Positions 4,909 through 26,882 of a stretch of DNA of 31,278 bases are shown in pieces (position 1 is the first letter of the stretch; every line of letters begins with the position of its first letter). Source of the stretch: a virus. The translations under genes were made by a program, and so were the position numbers. The notes beneath the pieces are model-generated. The model searched no databases. It had not been told where the DNA came from and saw only the letters and a list, made by a program, of their open reading frames with translations. Where the stretch lies: positions 1 to 31,278 of the IMG/VR virus record IMGVR_UViG_3300049046_000061. The stretch is one strand, 5' to 3'.

Positions 4909-5082
4909 ATGACTATATCACAAGAAAGCGTAAGCATCATACGGGACGAGAAAGGAGTCATTACACACATAGTGATAAATGACATAACCTCCCGTCACAC
5001 CTTGATCGGAGAGTGGAATGAGCTATCACTTGAAGAAGCCGCCGAATTACTAGAGAAAGGAATTAAATCACCAAATATATGA
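4909..5082 (+). CDS. hypothetical small protein
   Basis: This is a 57-residue frame, MTISQESVSIIRDEKGVITH then IVINDITSRHTLIGEW, ending in a helix rich in Glu and Leu (LSLEEAAELLEKGI). Its TGA overlaps the ATG of the 5079 gene. The pattern of beta strands then an acidic helix suggests a small folded protein. No family is recognised. Confidence 0.5.
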   Translation: MTISQESVSIIRDEKGVITHIVINDITSRHTLIGEWNELSLEEAAELLEKGIKSPNI

Positions 5083-5468
5083 AAGAAATATTCAAACTGG
5101 ATGAATGGATCGAGAGTGTGATTATTAACGACAAGGAGGTATCGAGTGACTTTACGTTGGTATTAAAAAGTGGCGAGAAGATTGCATTCAGTACCTACCA
5201 CAGCCAAGACTGTTGTGAGTCTGTATATGCTGACTTCACAGTATTGGAGTATGCAAAAAAAGAATTGGAAGGTAAAAAGTTTGGAAGTTTTGCTATTACG
5301 GGGGTCGATTCTATGGGTTTCCTTCTTCATTTCGGAGATAAGAAGTTCTTTATTCCTTGCTACAACCATCAGAACGGTTACTACAGTAGCGATCTTCATC
5401 TCATTGTGAAAAAGGGAAACACTGAAACTAAAATTGATATTAGTAATCTAACTGAGTCAGGAGAGTAA
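5079..5468 (+). CDS. conserved phage protein with H-x-Q-D-C-C-E core (DUF7448-like)
   Basis: The protein has 129 residues. The distinctive segment YHSQDCCESVYADF at about 40-53 follows a strand with SGEKIAFS. From memory this H-x-Q-D-C-C-E-x-V core is characteristic of a small phage protein family (DUF7448-like) of unknown function, possibly metal binding. The rest is beta-rich, with FGDKKFFIPCYN and a polar end. It is the last gene before the large folded RNA at about 5470-5890 and overlaps the gene before it as ATGA. Confidence 0.65.
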   Translation: MKEIFKLDEWIESVIINDKEVSSDFTLVLKSGEKIAFSTYHSQDCCESVYADFTVLEYAKKELEGKKFGSFAITGVDSMGFLLHFGDKKFFIPCYNHQNGYYSSDLHLIVKKGNTETKIDISNLTESGE

Positions 5469-5469
5469 C

Positions 5470-5890
5470 CAAGCTCCGCCCGTAAGCTAAGAGAGGGGAA
5501 ATGTTCTTTACAAGGAGGTTGGTAGGGTGACTCTGGATGTTAGACCTTAGCGGGCAATCCTAACTGCAGTTAACCCAGAAACGACTGGGTAGAGTCACCT
5601 GCCAATCTCTCTATTAAGAACCTGTCACGGGAAGTATATCGCTACAAAGAAGATTGTTTGGGCCATTGCCGAAAGTAGCTAGGCATCCAAACGGTTGCGA
5701 CGTGACTATACGAGTCTACCGTGGGACTTAAAAAGTCCAGAGGTCTCGTCAAATCGTCGCCTTCCCGACACAGGTTCGTAGTAGACATGGTAATCAGCTG
5801 GGGGAAGTAGTTTAAGTGAACAAAACTACTCCAACACTGACGAGTGAATGGAGTGACGCGTGGGTCATACCTGCCTTCCCCACCTGCTTA
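5470..5890 (+). ncRNA. large structured RNA, class not recognised
   Basis: This 420-base non-coding stretch is dense with helices. GGAGGTTGGTA-(G)-GGTGACTCT (5514-5534) pairs with 5591-5610 in about 20 bp with one bulge, extended by GTTCTT (5503-5508) with AAGAAC (5616-5621). AACCTGT and CGGGAAG (5619-5634) pair with CTTCCCG and ACAGGTT (5761-5776), 14 bp around a 2x2 loop. Inside lie GTTTGG/CCAAAC (5656-5692) with TGCC/GGCA, GCGACG/CGTCGC (5697-5760), ACGAG/CTCGT (5710-5749) and GGACTT/AAGTCC (5724-5738). Then GGGGAAG (5801-5807) pairs with CTTCCCC (5875-5881) around two hairpins. No T-run terminator follows, so it may also be a long leader for the genes at 5893. I do not see group I intron, RNase P, tmRNA or hammerhead cores. 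Confidence 0.7.
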
Positions 5891-5892
5891 TC

Positions 5893-5946
5893 ATGAAAAT
5901 CATCAAATTTATTATAGAGTACTTATTAAAAAACTGGATTTTATGA
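5893..5946 (+). CDS. possible 17-residue leader peptide
   Basis: A short frame begins four bases after the 5470-5890 RNA and encodes MKIIKFIIEYLLKNWIL, a hydrophobic amphipathic peptide. Its TGA overlaps the ATG of the next gene (ATGA at 5943-5946), the arrangement used by most real gene pairs here. It could couple translation of the next gene to ribosome passage, or be a toxic membrane peptide. The short length keeps confidence low. Confidence 0.35.
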   Translation: MKIIKFIIEYLLKNWIL

Positions 5947-6170
5947 AGAAAAGAAAACATCTATCAGCCCTGTTTTACGAAATGGGAAATGAGTATATCT
6001 ATCTTGCTGGCATGGGAGAAGCCCTTGCTACCGCAGAGAAGGAGGGCGTCGAGGAGATCGTAGTTACCAAATCCCAGTTTGAACAGGTCAAAAGATATAT
6101 GGCCATGAGTGCTATCTGGAACTGGGACAAGAAAACCTTTTGGGGTATGACGTTCGTAATAGAAGAATAA
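5943..6170 (+). CDS. hypothetical small protein
   Basis: The start is set at the ATG at 5943 rather than the longer frame from 5844, because the longer one would run through the structured RNA. The product has 75 residues, MKKRKHLSALFYEMGNEYIYL, then a helix AEKEGVEEIVVTKSQFEQVKR and an aromatic end (AIWNWDKKTFWGMTFVIEE). No family is recognised. It is the first full gene downstream of the structured RNA. Confidence 0.6.
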   Translation: MKKRKHLSALFYEMGNEYIYLAGMGEALATAEKEGVEEIVVTKSQFEQVKRYMAMSAIWNWDKKTFWGMTFVIEE

Positions 6171-8535: not shown

Positions 8536-8751
8536 CTATAGATGCCGTGAGAGCGCCCGAAGCGTGTCATTGGCGTCGTGGATCGCGCGGTCTAGCGAGT
8601 GAAGGGCTGTGTGTACGCGCCATAAGGCATGTTTCGGGCAACAGTAATACACCTTATCTTCTGGGTTCCCAAAGACCGGAAACGGTATGGTGGACGGCGA
8701 CTGGCTGTCTATTTCCCTTTTACAGTCTGGGCTGTCACATCTGACTATCAT
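8536..8751 (-). CDS. TRASH-like zinc-finger small protein A
   Basis: This 71-residue protein carries VRCDSPDCKREID near the N-terminus and VYYCCPKHALW near residue 37, giving C-x4-C and C-C-x2-H ligands as in small TRASH/MYM-type zinc fingers. A helical C-terminal half follows (HSLDRAIHDANDTLRALSRHL). AGGAGGT lies 4 bases before the ATG, an unusually strong ribosome binding site here. It is the last gene of the late arm, and three such zinc proteins sit together. Possible roles include late regulation or blocking a host factor, without direct evidence. Confidence 0.6.
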   Translation of the reverse strand: MIVRCDSPDCKREIDSQSPSTIPFPVFGNPEDKVYYCCPKHALWRVHTALHSLDRAIHDANDTLRALSRHL

Positions 8752-8755
8752 AATT

Positions 8756-8762
8756 ACCTCCT
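8756..8762 (-). promoter_or_regulatory. strong Shine-Dalgarno for 8536-8751
   Basis: On the minus strand AGGAGGT is followed by AATT and the ATG. Nearly all other genes in the window have no such site, so this is a notable exception shared with the two zinc genes upstream. Confidence 0.7.
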
Positions 8763-8770
8763 AAAACCAC

Positions 8771-8797
8771 CTTATAGAAGTCACCTAGGGAAGTCAA
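8771..8797 (-). promoter_or_regulatory. candidate promoter for zinc gene A
   Basis: TTGACT (8792-8797) and TATAAG (8771-8776) lie on the minus strand with a short spacer of 15 bases, between the terminator at 8828-8856 and the gene start at 8751. The hexamers are good but the spacing is below the usual range. Confidence 0.35.
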
Positions 8798-8827
8798 CCC
8801 AGCTGTCCCCAGTTTTTCCACATAAAG

Positions 8828-8856
8828 CAAAAAGCCACTGTGTAAGCAATGGCTTT
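8828..8856 (-). terminator. rho-independent terminator, minus strand
   Basis: AAAGCCA and TGGCTTT (8831-8837 with 8850-8856) form a 7-bp stem, followed on the minus strand by TTTTTGC. It insulates zinc gene A from upstream transcription and would end the candidate small RNA at 8828-8886. Confidence 0.65.
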
Positions 8857-8886
8857 CGGCTTTCCCAAATGACTAGCCTATCCGCC
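8828..8886 (-). ncRNA. candidate small RNA between two terminators
   Basis: An extended -10 (TGG then TAGAAT, 8892-8900) lies on the minus strand just after one terminator (8906-8944) and just before another (8828-8856). A transcript from about 8885 would be about 58 nt, ending in the terminator hairpin. No frame of note is encoded. This is inferred from signals alone. Confidence 0.35.
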
Positions 8887-8891
8887 CCTGC

Positions 8892-8900
8892 ATTCTACCA
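8892..8900 (-). promoter_or_regulatory. extended -10 promoter candidate
   Basis: The minus strand reads TGG-TAGAAT, an extended -10 with five of six core bases. No good -35 is seen. A similar TGG-TATAAT is used in front of the portal operon (29465-29473). Confidence 0.35.
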
Positions 8901-8905
8901 CATAA

Positions 8906-8944
8906 GAAAAGCCCCGAACACTGTACCAATAAGTGTAAGGGGCT
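8906..8944 (-). terminator. two-part hairpin terminator, minus strand
   Basis: AGCCCC (8910-8915) pairs with GGGGCT (8939-8944), and inside it ACACT with AGTGT across a 2x2 loop. The minus strand continues with TTTTCTT. It lies after the zinc gene pair 9020-9393. Confidence 0.65.
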
Positions 8945-8979
8945 GTGCCTATGGTAGCTTGGTCGGCACTGAAAGCGTA

Positions 8980-8996
8980 CCCCTCAGAAGCGAGGG
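8980..8996 (-). terminator. hairpin after zinc gene pair
   Basis: CCCCTC (8980-8985) pairs with GAGGGG (8991-8996) around a 5-base loop. No T run follows on the minus strand, so it may be an mRNA end-stabilising hairpin rather than a true terminator. Confidence 0.4.
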
Positions 8997-9019
8997 GCGA
9001 CGGAAGTAGTAGGCAACCG

Positions 9020-9202: not shown

Positions 9203-9393
9203 AATAACCTCCTCATCTCGCGGATCTCCCCGCGATGCTGTTCAAGGGTCTTCACGAACACACGATTGGCATGTGTCATTTGAACCCAAAAGTTACGGTG
9301 GCGCGACGAACAGAAGCACTCGTCTCCTGATCGCCAGACCACAATGAGGTCGTGTAGTGGCTCGCCGCAAAACGAACATGTACGTTGTTTCAT
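9190..9393 (-). CDS. TRASH-like zinc-finger small protein C
   Basis: The start is placed at the ATG at 9391-9393 because AAAGGAGT lies just before it; a longer frame to 9426 lacks such a site. The 67-residue product reads MKQRTCSFCGEPLHDLIVVW, then DECFCSSRHRNFW, giving C-x2-C and C-x-C-x3-H ligands. It ends with a helix (TLEQHRGEIREMRRLLCAT). It is the first of three related zinc proteins, co-transcribed with 9020-9202. The role is unknown. Confidence 0.6.
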   Translation of the reverse strand: MKQRTCSFCGEPLHDLIVVWRSGDECFCSSRHRNFWVQMTHANRVFVKTLEQHRGEIREMRRLLCAT

Positions 9394-9395
9394 AG

Positions 9396-9403
9396 ACTCC
9401 TTT
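9396..9403 (-). promoter_or_regulatory. Shine-Dalgarno fixing the start of 9190-9393
   Basis: The minus strand reads AAAGGAGT, TC-like spacing and then the ATG at 9393. The site decides between this start and a longer frame beginning at 9426. Confidence 0.65.
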
Positions 9404-9433
9404 CTTAAAGAACACTCGGCAATCATGTCGAGG

Positions 9434-9499
9434 GAGTAGGAGATGAAAAAGCGATTTACAATTGCGGCTTAATCTCCTACTCGCCCAACACGAGGGCGA
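9434..9499 (-). terminator. double hairpin after the holin gene
   Basis: TCGCCC (9481-9486) pairs with GGGCGA (9494-9499) directly after the holin-like gene. Next to it, an 11-base perfect inverted repeat, GAGTAGGAGAT (9434-9444) with ATCTCCTACTC (9472-9482), encloses a 27-base loop. The two share bases 9481-9482, so they may be alternatives. There is no strong T run, so this could be terminator, attenuator or processing site between lysis genes and zinc genes. Confidence 0.45.
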
Positions 9500-9504
9500 T
9501 GGGG

Positions 9505-9753
9505 TTACTCGCTATATCTAGCCCGAACAGCAATAACAATTTTCTTTACGATTCCGTAAAGCGTCCACACTGATGAGATGGCTGCGCCGAGTACGACTGC
9601 CATCTGAGTAATTGTCTCTGACGCAATTTCAAAACCCATCTGTTGAGCAATAAAAATGATTAGGGTAGATGCGCCAATAATAATTCCCTTAACTGTATCC
9701 GCAAGCTTCTGTGGGTCTTCACTCGAACTTAATGCGCCAAATTTTCTGTTCAT
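9505..9753 (-). CDS. holin-like protein
   Basis: The start is placed at the ATG at 9751-9753 (MNRKFGALSSSEDPQKL); the longer frame to 9792 would overlap the endolysin gene. The 82-residue product has two hydrophobic segments, GIIIGASTLIIFIAQQM (about 22-38) and ITQMAVVLGAAISSVWTLYGIV (about 48-70), followed by a basic tail (KKIVIAVRARYSE). Two membrane helices with a charged end fit a class II holin that opens the membrane for the endolysin encoded just upstream (9758-11047). No Shine-Dalgarno is seen. Another small membrane protein is possible, but context favours a holin. Confidence 0.65.
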   Translation of the reverse strand: MNRKFGALSSSEDPQKLADTVKGIIIGASTLIIFIAQQMGFEIASETITQMAVVLGAAISSVWTLYGIVKKIVIAVRARYSE

Positions 9754-9757
9754 ATTT

Positions 9758-11047
9758 TTATATACACTTAAAATAATAAATTTTATAACCACCCTTGTTC
9801 CTGTACCTCAATATCCAACTTTCCAGCGTGTAGTTCTCGATAAACTGACCCGTCGCTGATGAGTTCGACATGATCTTCAAGTCCTTGCCGAAGATACCGA
9901 CATGACCGTTTTTAATTGGCGTATTGGCAAGCTCTGAGAACCCTGTAGGACTAATGATGATGTTCCCTGGTTCTGGGTCAGTGACTCGTACAAACTTATC
10001 CGCCCGATCGACCATAGCGGCAAAGCCCCTGGTAGTGGAAAGTCCTGGAGTCTCAATGTACTCACCAAAGGCTTTGAAGTATATTTCGTTTACAGTCTCC
10101 ATACAGCCGAGTTCATCGGGCGCGGCGTCATTAGGTGAGGCATCTGTGCCTAAACAGGCTACTGCGGTCTCGTATAATCGCTCACGGGGTGATTTTGGAG
10201 GTGGGGTTGGTGTAGATACCGTCACAATTACGTCGGGAACCTTCGATCTCGGCCTGATCGAGGCTACCACTTTTTTTATGAGTTCAATGAGCCATGAGTC
10301 CTTTTTTACAACAGGTTCTAGGGAGTACCTTTTACAGTAGTAGATATTGTGGTCGGGGTGTAGGATTTTTAATGAATGATCGTAGGAGTCAAACACCTTC
10401 CAAAATGTTTCGGTGATTGTCTCCTTTCCTACGGTCACGATCTTGTCTGTATATCCATACGCCATGCACCAGTGAGTGTTCGGTAGTCCACGGTCTACAT
10501 AGATGCCGTCCTCCTCAAACCACGCTGTCACGGAGACACCGAGAGGTGAATACTGTAGCGCTTGCTTCATCAGTTGCACACGGGTCTTTTTGTCTACATT
10601 TGTAAATACCCATTCGTGACCGAAGTTCCACTTTTTTAGCCATTCGCCGCCTTTTGTAAGGTCGTCTTTTGAGGGTGGTGTAGGTGTGCAGAAAGCCTCA
10701 AAAGTATCAGGCATAGTCCGATTAGGAATGAGGCCCACTTCCCTGATAGCGTCACATACAGCATGAGGGTCTGCACCAGGTGGTCTGACAGGGACAGTAT
10801 TATAAATGTATTTCTCGTCGTAGTTGGGTTCAATCCCAGTCAACCGACTTTCCAGTACCTCAAGGGCGTTCTCGGTTCCCCATACGGTGCAGCCGTAGGT
10901 TTCGTATTTCTCCGCCTGTGGCTCGTATAAAGGAAGGTACTTATCCCACTGGCCGTCGGGCTGTAAGATCGTCTTAGGCAGGCTCGTAAAGCCTCCTAGG
11001 ACGTAGTGTGTAGCTTTGAGCTTGGGTTCTATAAAGCCGTAGTTCAT
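9758..11047 (-). CDS. two-domain endolysin: papain-like and NlpC/CHAP-like
   Basis: This 429-residue protein appears to have two cysteine-peptidase-type domains. The N-terminal one has YGCTVWGTENALE (C53 as nucleophile), NTHWCMAYGY (H192) and a following Asp/Asn region KVFDSYDHSLK (D220), as in papain-like C1/C39-type peptidases. A Pro/Thr linker (about 279-288, PTPPPKSP) leads to a C-terminal domain with LGCMETVNEIYFKAF (C315) and NGHVGIFG (H382), as in CHAP or NlpC/P60 amidases. Such enzymes cleave peptidoglycan peptides. It sits between a coiled-coil/TM protein (11044-11259) and a holin, forming a lysis module. Two catalytic domains in one lysin, one papain-like, is uncommon; it could instead be a virion-associated lysin. 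No signal peptide is seen. Confidence 0.7.
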   Translation of the reverse strand: MNYGFIEPKLKATHYVLGGFTSLPKTILQPDGQWDKYLPLYEPQAEKYETYGCTVWGTENALEVLESRLTGIEPNYDEKYIYNTVPVRPPGADPHAVCDAIREVGLIPNRTMPDTFEAFCTPTPPSKDDLTKGGEWLKKWNFGHEWVFTNVDKKTRVQLMKQALQYSPLGVSVTAWFEEDGIYVDRGLPNTHWCMAYGYTDKIVTVGKETITETFWKVFDSYDHSLKILHPDHNIYYCKRYSLEPVVKKDSWLIELIKKVVASIRPRSKVPDVIVTVSTPTPPPKSPRERLYETAVACLGTDASPNDAAPDELGCMETVNEIYFKAFGEYIETPGLSTTRGFAAMVDRADKFVRVTDPEPGNIIISPTGFSELANTPIKNGHVGIFGKDLKIMSNSSATGQFIENYTLESWILRYRNKGGYKIYYFKCI

Positions 11048-13190: not shown

Positions 13191-15785
13191 TTAATTACAT
13201 GTACCAGTCCCAAATACCCACGCCGCACCGACAAGATAGACACACCGCATTACTCCGGCAGAATCCAGTCCCTCAAACTGGAGCTTCTGCATACGGATAG
13301 TTGAGCTTGCTGCGGTTGTGGAAGGGTCGGGGCCGAGGTTCAGTATTTTGGCTGTTGATGAGGTGGCTATGGAAAGCGAGGGGTTGCCTGTTGGATTAAC
13401 TTGTATGGCGGGGTTGGTAGTCGTTGCGCCCGTTGTTGGAGAGGATGTAGCGAAATAGAGGATACCGTTTTTGTTTCGAAAATTCCATTGAGCTGAGGTC
13501 AGGCTTCCGTCGGTCAGGGTCAAATTCTGACCCGTTGAGGTAGCCAGGGTAAAGAGGTAGTTGGAGAAAGGTGTGGTCGTACCAAAGGCGGCGTTTTGCA
13601 CCGTATTGTTGTAGTAGAAGATTGACGAGTCCAAGGTCGTTGCTCCTGAGTAGTACGAAAGTCTGTTGGTCGTACCAGAATTGATCGTGCCTGAACCCCC
13701 TGCACCGCCCACACACACGTTATTGATTGAGAAACAACCGCCAGAGAGGTTTATGCCCCGTGCGAAGGTGGATGTGGCGGAAGTACCAGTGATATTCAAG
13801 TAGGTTCCTTGTATGCCTCCAGCAAAGGTGGAGGTCGCAGTTGTTTCGCCCCGTATAGTCGTAGTGGCTGTTCGGCCTACAAAGATGCCGTCCAGTGCCG
13901 AGAATGACGTGGAAGAAGCGGATACAAATGTCTGCAAGCCTGTCCATGAGTTTGAACGGGTGAAGTCTATAGCTGCGGTGCGGGCGGTGCTGCCGTTATA
14001 CGCACCAGCAGAGGTAAGTCCTGCCCCGATGGTCAGATCAGCCAAGTTGGAACCGAGGGCGATGCCGGAAATCGTGGAGTTTGCCAACATGGTGTTTGAG
14101 ATCGCTCCCGCATCTACCGTACAGGTAGTACCATTACAGGTGAATGAACCAAAGTCCGAGGCTGAAAGGTTGTCAGGGTCAATGGCGTTCGCGGTGATTT
14201 GTTGGGTTGAGAGCGAAAGATAGTCTTCACCGGCGAGGGTTACTGCTGCGTGAAGCTCCGAGTCGCGGGCGATAGTTGAGGCTATCGAAAGCGCGTCACC
14301 TGTCAGCACGATTTCCGCATCACCAGCAAGGTTTGTCTCGCTTGAAATATCAATAGATGTACCAAGATCAGATGTGACGTTTCCTGCGGAGTACGTTAGA
14401 CCGCTTGAGAAAGTGGTAGTAGCTGACCATGTCGGGGCCAGTCCTGCACCGCGGGACATAAGGGTGTATCCAGCTGTGCCCTGGGAGTTATTGCCATCAT
14501 AAATCTGGCCCAAGAGGGTGAGCTGTGTAGTTGAAGCACGATCAAAGACGTTTCTGCCGCTCCAAGTGTTTATATCAGAAAGTAAGGTTGATGAAGCTGT
14601 AGTGTCTACCGGCCATGAAGTTCGGCAATCCGCAGTAAGACAGAGCGAAGTAGCCGAGAGAACTGTTGTGGATGCGTTCGACACTGTAAGAACGTTTGTT
14701 GCATCATTATAGGTAAATGCCGCCTCTGCCCCCACATCACTCGCGGAAGTGCCGTAGATGACGTAGGTATCTGCAATATCCGTTGAGGTGGCAAGGCCAG
14801 CACCGCCTGAACCCGACGAATCTGTACCGTCACAGAGTCCTGCACCACCAGTAATTGAAACGCAGAAGTCATCCCATGAGTTACCCGTTACACCGCCGAA
14901 GGTGAGGAATCCTGTGGTGTTCAGTCCTGCGGTTTCAAGGCGGGGCAAGGTTGAGGTCGCCGTGGTCGTTGTGGCAGTGAAATGAGAGGCTACTGTTTCA
15001 CCTACCACAGAGAGCTTGGCGTATGGAGTGGTAGTGCCGACGCCGACATTGCCGTTATACATCACGTTAAACATCGAGGCATTGGTGCTGCTTGATACCC
15101 TGAAAGAATCGCCCGTACCATCGGCGTTGTTGGTGACGTTGAACAGTACATTGGTTGTGTTCAGCCTACCTACAAAGTTCGTGGTTCCAGCCCCGTTTGC
15201 AAAAAAGAAGTAACTGCCTGTGCCTGTCGGGTCTTGGAAGAATTGAGTACGCATCGAGTCAGTGTTAATCAGCCCGCTTCCATCTGCATTGCTGAAATTC
15301 CCGTTAGTGGCTATATCCCCACTGCTGTTCACGGTAAGCTGCCCACTACCGACATTCAGCGCCCCTGCATAGGCTGTACCTGAGACAGTCTGTGAGGTCG
15401 ACGACGCGTAGGGGAAGGTTGAGGCGGTAGAGGTTGTGGCGGTGAATTTGGCGGCTACTACTTCACCTACTACAGAGAGTTTGGCGTATGGTGAAGAAGT
15501 TCCAATACCTACATTTGATGAGCCTGTGAAATATATGGATGTAGGATCGGTGGAAGAAGCCCAGCCAGTGCCGGAGCCACCTCCGCCCGCAGCACACGTG
15601 TCCCAGATATTATTCGTTCCGTCTGTAGATAGGCAGTCCCCGTTACTTGGGCCAGTTGCAAGTTGGAGTGAGATGAACGGATCGCTAAATGCCCCGAAAG
15701 TCTGTGCTTTGGGTATATGACTTAAACCAAACCATCCGCCGACGGATAGGGTTAGAGCTATGATGGAAGAAATTAAATAATTCAT
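13191..15785 (-). CDS. large repeat-containing tail fibre / surface fibre
   Basis: This is the longest protein, 864 residues. It begins MNYLISSIIALTLSVGGWFG, a signal- or anchor-like segment ending near AQTFG. A Gly-rich spacer leads to repeats beginning SNVGIGTSSPYAKLSVVGE (about 90-108), with a second copy NVGVGTTTPYAKLSVVGE near 245-262. The rest is built of Ser/Thr/Ala 'ATST'-type strands, likely a trimeric beta-helical fibre. The end (around GVMRCVYLVGAAWVFGTGTC) has the look of a short closing domain seen in CPR fibres. It lacks the conserved endosialidase-chaperone core that I would recognise. It is the strongest pointer to a Patescibacteria host. It may bind the host or be displayed by it. 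Confidence 0.65.
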   Translation of the reverse strand: MNYLISSIIALTLSVGGWFGLSHIPKAQTFGAFSDPFISLQLATGPSNGDCLSTDGTNNIWDTCAAGGGGSGTGWASSTDPTSIYFTGSSNVGIGTSSPYAKLSVVGEVVAAKFTATTSTASTFPYASSTSQTVSGTAYAGALNVGSGQLTVNSSGDIATNGNFSNADGSGLINTDSMRTQFFQDPTGTGSYFFFANGAGTTNFVGRLNTTNVLFNVTNNADGTGDSFRVSSSTNASMFNVMYNGNVGVGTTTPYAKLSVVGETVASHFTATTTTATSTLPRLETAGLNTTGFLTFGGVTGNSWDDFCVSITGGAGLCDGTDSSGSGGAGLATSTDIADTYVIYGTSASDVGAEAAFTYNDATNVLTVSNASTTVLSATSLCLTADCRTSWPVDTTASSTLLSDINTWSGRNVFDRASTTQLTLLGQIYDGNNSQGTAGYTLMSRGAGLAPTWSATTTFSSGLTYSAGNVTSDLGTSIDISSETNLAGDAEIVLTGDALSIASTIARDSELHAAVTLAGEDYLSLSTQQITANAIDPDNLSASDFGSFTCNGTTCTVDAGAISNTMLANSTISGIALGSNLADLTIGAGLTSAGAYNGSTARTAAIDFTRSNSWTGLQTFVSASSTSFSALDGIFVGRTATTTIRGETTATSTFAGGIQGTYLNITGTSATSTFARGINLSGGCFSINNVCVGGAGGSGTINSGTTNRLSYYSGATTLDSSIFYYNNTVQNAAFGTTTPFSNYLFTLATSTGQNLTLTDGSLTSAQWNFRNKNGILYFATSSPTTGATTTNPAIQVNPTGNPSLSIATSSTAKILNLGPDPSTTAASSTIRMQKLQFEGLDSAGVMRCVYLVGAAWVFGTGTCN
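14945..15515 (-). repeat. two diverged fibre repeat units
   Basis: Within the large fibre, coding DNA for G-[IV]-G-T-[ST]-[ST]-P-Y-A-K-L-S-V-V-G-E occurs at about 15414-15515 and again at about 14945-15053. The protein identity is high while codons differ (for example at the GTSSP and GTTTP positions), so the units are old duplicates, not recent copies. Confidence 0.6.
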
Positions 15786-26311: not shown

Positions 26312-26330
26312 CTTTAACGGTGAGTGAGAA

Positions 26331-26362
26331 CGAAAAACCGACTGCTTTGTGAGCAATCGGTT
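26331..26362 (-). terminator. rho-independent terminator, minus strand
   Basis: AACCGATTGCT pairs with AGCAGTCGGTT (26336-26346 with 26352-26362, one G-U), then TTTTT on the minus strand. It ends transcripts from the genes at 26457-29088. Confidence 0.75.
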
Positions 26363-26378
26363 GATGTCCTAGGTATGG

Positions 26379-26443
26379 AAAACTTCTACATAAACCACAT
26401 CTAGGGCATCGGCCGATTGCCCCAAAACATGTAGAAGTTTTTT
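26379..26443. terminator. 13-bp bidirectional hairpin with inner palindrome
   Basis: AAAACTTCTACAT (26379-26391) pairs perfectly with ATGTAGAAGTTTT (26429-26441). The loop contains a second stem, GGGCA/TGCCC (26404-26422), around the palindrome ATCGGCCGAT (26408-26417). The plus side ends in TTTTTT. It is unusually elaborate for a terminator and lies just before the terminator at 26331-26362. Confidence 0.6.
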
Positions 26444-26456
26444 AATTGTCAGAGAA

Positions 26457-26882
26457 CTACTGCCACGTAATCGTACTCGTTCCTATGTTCGTCGAACCCG
26501 TACACACCGCCAAAAGTCCCCTATTGAATACTACGTTAAGCGGATAAGCGCCTTCTGCAAGCGAAGCGGGAATCGTGATATCCATGACTGTTGAGGTTGC
26601 ATAGTGACCGTGATTAGTGGACGTTGCATCAACCAGTCGAATTGACCCTGCTGTTTCGGTAAGGATAATAACTGAACTCAACGTTCCAAAACCATTCTTT
26701 AAGAGCTTCTGACGCGGCCCACCTGCGGCGCAGGTCGCATCCCAAGTAGAATCGGTAGACGTGGCAATGTTGTCGTTAACAGCATTACCAACTTTAAGGC
26801 CTTCTCCACTCTTTGGAACAATGAAATAAACCCCGATTAAGACCAGAACCACTGTTACTATTGTAGATAATACGTTTTTCAT
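26457..26882 (-). CDS. membrane-anchored small surface protein
   Basis: The protein has 141 residues: a hydrophobic N-terminal anchor (residues 4-23, VLSTIVTVVLVLIGVYFIVP) followed by a polar, Thr-rich beta domain. This includes STWDATCAAGGPRQKLL, HGHYATSTVMDITIP and a second Cys in AVCTGSTNIGT. The composition and 'ATST' style match host-type secreted proteins. Its stop lies before two terminators, so it ends a transcription unit. The function is unknown; surface decoration or exclusion is possible. Confidence 0.6.
   Translation of the reverse strand: MKNVLSTIVTVVLVLIGVYFIVPKSGEGLKVGNAVNDNIATSTDSTWDATCAAGGPRQKLLKNGFGTLSSVIILTETAGSIRLVDATSTNHGHYATSTVMDITIPASLAEGAYPLNVVFNRGLLAVCTGSTNIGTSTITWQ

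Follow-up and report, generated by a model that had tools for sequence, protein, structure and literature searches.

Viral mimicry of tRNA is known above all from plant RNA viruses. A review covers viral tRNA mimicry (PMC5723415). The tRNA-like structures of plant RNA viruses lie at the 3' ends of RNA genomes. GOLLD and ROOL are large structured phage RNAs which are often found near tRNA genes and whose function is unknown (PMC12286853). The tmRNA, which also occurs in phages, has a tRNA-like end domain and a pseudoknot replacing the anticodon arm. An RNA element sharing features with each of these was found in a viral DNA of 31,278 nucleotides (IMG/VR record IMGVR_UViG_3300049046_000061, positions 1 to 31,278), the whole of which is called the window here. 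The best overall explanation, with a probability of about 0.6, is that positions 5618-5777 are a member of an unrecorded phage RNA family built on a tRNA-Leu body. The identity and structure of this module are close to certain; the functional part of the explanation is tentative, at somewhat less than even odds. Searches of open-access papers turned up no description, and the family seems to be unrecorded, while viral tRNA mimicry as such is already known.

The module shares viral tRNA mimicry with the plant virus structures but is a separate element of DNA phages and carries no CCA. It resembles tmRNA in the tRNA-like domain and the pseudoknot but has a Leu-type D-arm, no recognised tag reading frame, no CCA and no match to tmRNA models (cmscan, ARAGORN). 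Neither GOLLD nor ROOL matched by its Rfam covariance model, and the conserved core here is tRNA-like and only about 160 nt long; the comparison with GOLLD and ROOL made in the first-pass annotation holds in spirit only. The likeness to tRNA-Leu (Rfam RF00005) lies in the D-arm TGGCGGAATAGGTAGACGC, the T-stem and T-loop residues and an implied L-shaped layout. The anticodon arm, CCA, 7-bp acceptor and unsplit T-loop of tRNA-Leu set it apart from the module. The features of the locus are as follows.

5079..5468, + strand, upstream gene encoding a DUF7448 protein (Pfam PF24240, E 1.4e-6; homologue in L002)
5466..5895, + strand, gene-free structured stretch (shuffle z -6.3; operon ORFs absent on this strand)
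5478..5609, + strand, domain 1, predicted by folding
5478-5491 with 5546-5555, + strand, predicted pseudoknot of domain 1
5515-5535 with 5590-5609, + strand, predicted long helix of domain 1
5574-5589, + strand, predicted hairpin of domain 1
5618..5777, + strand, tRNA-like module, the conserved core (R1 match 5627-5768)
5618..5634, + strand, 5' strand of the base ('acceptor') helix, GAACCTGT CA CGGGAAG, pairing with 5761-5777
5641..5645, + strand, 5' strand of predicted pseudoknot helix S1, GCTAC, pairing with GTAGC at 5675-5679 (pseudoknot search)
5652..5662, + strand, 5' strand of predicted pseudoknot helix S2, pairing with 5686-5696 directly before the T-stem (topology enriched in relatives)
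5697..5702, + strand, 5' strand of the T-stem, GCGACG, pairing with CGTCGC at 5755-5760 (covaries in relatives)
5703..5754, + strand, split T-loop, T54 being position 5703 (motif kept in more than 100 viral contigs)
5704-5748, + strand, stem-loop inserted in the T-loop, GACTATACGAG...CTCG, with an inner helix 5711-5714/5745-5748
5749-5754, + strand, remainder of the T-loop after the insert, TCAAAT
5761..5777, + strand, 3' strand of the base helix in the fold, CTTCCCG AC ACAGGTTC, with no CCA end after it
5801..5881, + strand, domain 3, GGGGAAG/CTTCCCC around three hairpins, predicted by folding
5801-5807 with 5875-5881, + strand, predicted closing helix of domain 3
5943..6170, + strand, downstream small gene with no family match

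The + strand of 5466-5895 folded at -162.7 kcal/mol against a mean of -125.6 (sd 5.9) for dinucleotide shuffles (z -6.30), and none of 100 shuffles folded as well. The claim of the first-pass annotation that pairing here is far above chance was borne out. The minus strand folded less strongly (z -4.07). In a scan by 150-nt steps the three parts of the stretch ranked among the most structured spots of the window, and a few other intergenic places were equally structured. Folding energy alone is therefore insufficient as a case. All the helices named earlier were recovered in the fold and given coordinates, and the competing pairings noted at 5616-5621 are real. One partner open to AAGAAC is GTTCTT at 5503-5508; alternatively, its GAAC can join the base helix GAACCTGT/ACAGGTTC. 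The pairing of 5478-5491 with 5546-5555 is a predicted pseudoknot because 5546-5555 sits in the loop of a GTTAG/CTAAC hairpin. The structures of domains 1 and 3 are purely thermodynamic predictions. These two domains flank the module; no homologue was found for either, and domain 1 was absent from the relatives.

The stretch had been described as without a gene, and indeed no ORF of the flanking operon entered 5469-5892 on the + strand. Both neighbours are encoded on the + strand, as is the stretch itself, and small downstream genes begin at 5893 and 5943. The upstream DUF7448 gene ends at the same position as its relative in L002 and is thus not an interrupted exon. A group I intron was rejected on this ground and in the absence of an Rfam match. 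A scan of the window for promoters and terminators gave nothing beyond chance level. The covariance search of the stretch against Rfam matched no known class at gathering score, the best being a chance 19-nt snoRNA match (E 2.9), and ARAGORN called neither a tRNA nor a tmRNA in the window. When all 430 nt were compared with phages by BLAST, chance matches alone were returned. The neighbouring genes have relatives (L002-L034), but no similar RNA was present at those loci. L002 and L006 do have structured gaps, which were rejected as homologous RNA, being AT-rich repeats.

Other structured places were seen in the window. Situated between two late genes, the most strongly folded 150-nt step was 26326-26475 (z -5.7 on the + strand, -4.65 on the minus strand). 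Its end is formed by a terminator-like stem, AACTTCTACAT/ATGTAGAAGTTTTTT, seemingly interlocked with a second long helix. The intergenic places 1801-1950 and 9376-9525 had z values of about -4 and were unmatched by the tRNA-like model. The region 8551-9000, around small minus-strand genes, was highly structured on both strands (z -3.5 to -4.1). The window also encodes a large protein on the minus strand (13191-15785) with repeats such as GTSSPYAKLSVVGE. Repeats of this type occur in Patescibacteria and their phages, and the host of the window phage may belong there.

Relatives were found for the module part of the stretch. Comparison of the 430 nt with 35 related virus records gave two short colinear matches, both in G011; a short match in G018 was rejected as it falls inside a gene. 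The G011 place reads GTGGGG, TGGCGGAATAGTAGACGC, about 90 variable nt, ATGCAAGGT, GACTATACGAGT...ACTCG and TCAAATCCTTGCCCCCAC, and is tRNA-Leu-like. GTGACTATACGAG and CTCGTCAAATC are common to the window and G011 and lie at the same place between the T-stem strands. A scan for the pattern GACTATACGAG N22-52 CTCGTCAAATC matched 55 viral contigs and nine genome contigs, with which the window element has GTGACTATACGAG and CTCGTCAAATC in common in the correct T-stem and base helix frame. The genome contigs come from bins labelled Pseudolabrys, Melioribacter, Acidobacteria, Brocadia, Cytophagales, Pirellulales and others. The pattern fixes 22 bases, so the matches are not due to chance, and nearly all possess the T-stem and base helix. 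Relaxed scans gave 103 and 82 stretches. The 3' part of the motif was CTCG(T/G)CAAATC in these, and its 5' part varied (TGACTCTA, TGACGATA, TAACTATA or GACAGATA). Taken over the pattern scans, the split T-loop module was present in more than 100 viral contigs.

An uninterrupted T-loop, TGCAAAT, was found in L093, L085 and Weissella phage WC29P3, and also in plasmids of L. paracasei, L. plantarum and E. faecalis (pKUB3006-2). The relatives in the Weissella phage and the plasmids are unannotated (L271 1496-1622, L273 694-791, L275 694-801 and L274 from 694). In the sequence record of WC29P3, OP172841, the element occupies about 10,269-10,395. The existence of such relatives makes the insert an expansion at one exact site. 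The split T-arm was not found by BLAST in cultured phages and plasmids; its conserved blocks of 15-16 nt are below the reach of BLAST, and the count of occurrences in cultured phages is a lower bound.

Several copies may occur in one phage, for example four R1 matches in G036. Two equally scoring copies in this phage (L176 4136-4352 and 6885-7101) suggest a recent duplication. Phage contig L100 carries 33 tRNA genes with several tRNA-like elements adjoining. Arrays of odd tRNA-like elements were seen at about 5030-5422 of L231 and at 3690-3835 of L085. They include one element with a D-loop insert, one tRNA-Leu-like element whose anticodon arm has about 75 nt, and units arranged in tandem with GGGGACAG/CTGTCCCC as the closing pair of strands.

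Only the middle third of the stretch (5618-5777) is demonstrably conserved; its tRNA-like nature and its homologues were missed in the first-pass annotation. The model R1 was built from alignment A1, which holds 34 members and excludes the window. R1 matched 5627-5768 at 51.3 bits (E 3.4e-12, R1 E-values resting on a short calibration), and the runner-up place in the window reached 7.4 bits (9350-9493). Scores over 100 loci ran from about 27 to 118 bits for members, and the window grouped by score with D-arm-diverged members such as L126, L094, L147 and L133.

From the outside in, the family order is base helix, D-arm, variable domain, (A)TGC, 6-bp T-stem, T54, insert, (T/G)CAAAT and T-stem. 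The base helix has 7-8 nearly invariably paired steps and often extends to 20-26 bp beyond a weak spot. In the window it has 15 bp interrupted by a 2x2 internal loop; a 7-bp acceptor with N-CCA was seen neither there nor in relatives (up to 26 bp), and CCA is absent. The D-arm with the tRNA-Leu sequence directly follows the base helix in most members and is missing in about 10%. The window has TATATCGC where the canonical sequence is TGGCGGAA, and lacks the tRNA-Leu D-arm, so the elbow contact is not assured in this member. It carries the split T-loop motif on a T-stem and base helix that defines the family. The T-stem covaries, and T54 and (T/G)CAAAT are kept with the insert between them. Genuine tRNA-Leu genes of the same data set carry a TTCGA loop, and their CCA is encoded. 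No anticodon arm with a 7-nt loop was found; the variable domain stands there and is best fitted by a pseudoknot.

The named structure was paired in 98.7% of the cells of A1, and pairing fell to 38-47% when the alignment was slid by one to three columns. Double changes numbered 143 cells compared with 38 in shuffles, and the covariation score was 0.545 (0.146 shuffled, at most 0.135 slid). Changes on both sides occurred in 12 of the 21 pairs. All four Watson-Crick types occur among the base helix pairs, the D-stem exchanges C-G for U-A, and the T-stem exchanges A-U for G-C among others. The covariation by which the earlier helices were to be judged was present in 5628-5634/5761-5767 and in the T-stem. 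The inner helix CGAG/CTCG was invariant in A1 and gave no covariation. Since the search patterns prescribed the ends of the insert, conservation of these ends is partly ascertainment; covariation hence lends this helix no support. A check free of fitting set the base helix register from the D-arm motif alone (n = 89), and 96% of cells paired compared with 35-56% when slid. The earlier suggestion of a new class of phage RNA is supported for the 5618-5777 part of the stretch. This part belongs to no Rfam family, its homologues in unrelated phages number more than 100, and the base helix, D-stem and T-stem all show compensatory changes.

The family also tends towards a pseudoknot. Among 69 members with a short variable domain the crossing topology had a mean score of 18.5 against 8.8 in shuffles, nested pairing 11.9 against 7.8 and sequential pairing 10.6 against 6.8, the excess being larger for the crossing topology than for the other two. 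In the window GCTAC/GTAGC crosses an 11-pair helix, an arrangement equalled by 1 of 1000 shuffles. The pseudoknot of each individual member is a prediction.

The arms are exchanged wholesale on a fixed scaffold. In the pairs L090/L209, L091/L098 and L105/L249 the flanks are 92-99% identical and the arm sequences unrelated, while D-arm, T-stem and insert ends are retained. The base helix differs as well in L105/L249. In L139/L148 the arms have diverged by slow drift, and a 7-bp helix of the variable domain changed from GGACGAG/CTTGTCC to GGATGAG/CTCATC, which is compensatory by inspection. Together these cases indicate that arms are usually retained and sometimes replaced outright. Blocks shared among several copies per phage would permit such exchange. 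Pairing between the two variable arms was not above that of mismatched partners. Complementarity of the variable arms to their own phage locus showed no excess, and an antisense guide to that locus was rejected.

The commonest neighbour gene cluster within 6 kb was present at 13 of 107 loci, and a shared neighbour gene was rejected since none exceeded this count. The genes recurring near the elements are of the ordinary kind for the early region of a phage. Among them are putative genes for a YopX-like protein, for nucleases of the HNH and NinG types and for a single-strand annealing protein. A NinG-type nuclease gene is among the window genes (Pfam). In L091 and L098 the module lies within a larger RNA-like region that starts about 300 nt before the element and stretches to 360 nt after it. 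The pair GTTCATGCAGTTAAATGG/CCATTTAACCGCATGAAC closes this region; the stem bases in it, such as CTGCTAGTAGTA/TACTACTAGCAG, are constant and the tips exchanged. The motif CTACTAGCACCATRCGCT was seen again in L123, L126 and L130, as was GGCTTTCGAGCC in L123 and L149. The region and the recurring motifs are perhaps a larger RNA class.

It is highly improbable that the module represents a phage tRNA-Leu gene that has degenerated or carries an intron, in which the T-loop insert would be an intron whose removal restores a normal T-loop, and the remainder decay. The D-arm identical to tRNA-Leu, the insert at one exact site that is missing in the TGCAAAT relatives, and the R1 matches to apparent host tRNA-Leu genes (30-42 bits) would suit such a gene. 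Its anticodon stem and encoded CCA are nevertheless absent, the uninterrupted relatives likewise have no anticodon arm, and the base helix runs far beyond 7 bp with compensatory changes; decay does not preserve covarying helices. ARAGORN and Rfam RF00005 called no tRNA in the elements examined, namely those of the window, L085, L090, L091, L098 and L271. An archaeal bulge-helix-bulge intron at the T-loop was rejected by inspection, the sequence being unfitting. It is doubtful, though better than unlikely, that all 420 nt make up a single large ornate RNA of the GOLLD or ROOL sort with the module as one arm. Homologues of domains 1 and 3 were not found, many relatives seem to consist of nothing but the module, and a GOLLD or ROOL match is absent. 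Domains 1 and 3 are strongly folded too, however, the L091/L098 module lies inside a larger region with conserved stem bases, and the 150 nt just upstream was structured in 36% of relatives compared with 12% of controls.

The element lies inside an operon, shortly before a ribosome-binding site in the window and many relatives, and base helices of at least 20 bp would be RNase III substrates. These points and the competing pairings at 5616-5621 speak for a processing site or leader that acts in cis in the early transcript and would control the downstream genes by cleavage or an AAGAAC switch. Such an element is unlikely, given that different phages have unrelated genes downstream, the Weissella element is followed, ahead of the next gene, by a terminator-like hairpin and a T-run of its own, and the arms are hypervariable. 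A cis-acting leader role in particular is unlikely because the neighbour genes differ, and the regulatory leader for the genes at 5893 put forward in the first-pass annotation is disfavoured, as relatives adjoin unrelated genes. With differing neighbour genes and no arm-locus complementarity, an independent trans-acting RNA fits better than a leader of one gene.

The best guess for the tRNA-Leu-bodied family is a trans-acting tRNA mimic whose specificity would be set by the variable arms. The RNA is probably co-transcribed with the early operon, since it is on the same strand as both neighbours with no terminator between. Long duplexes are substrates of RNase III, and this enzyme may release the RNA by cutting the base helix, a step proposed from the anatomy. 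In the released RNA the acceptor-like helix would stack on the T-stem, and the D-arm and T-loop sequences of the tRNA elbow are retained in most members. A hypervariable domain, mostly a predicted H-type pseudoknot, stands in for the anticodon region, and the T-loop accommodates another hypervariable stem-loop, inserted behind T54. The tRNA elbow is a common recognition surface. Given its tRNA shape, the body would serve as the binding site of a tRNA-handling protein from the host or the phage, and the RNA would act in trans. The exchangeable arms would set specificity or evade recognition, as in a host arms race. A more speculative reading, which we regard as rather improbable, is a phage-wide class in which a fixed tRNA-Leu-shaped scaffold shows two interchangeable hypervariable arms, exchanged among phages through recombination at the conserved scaffold blocks and selected by a tRNA-handling host factor. 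If true, it would be the equivalent, in RNA, of variable loops borne on a constant framework.

If the main explanation is right, a tRNA mimic is common in phages and invisible to genome annotation. Its arms would change faster than the surrounding DNA, a pattern that usually marks direct host contact. With R1, over 100 examples and, in Weissella phage WC29P3, a relative that is in culture, a bench test of the benefit of tRNA mimicry to phages would become feasible.
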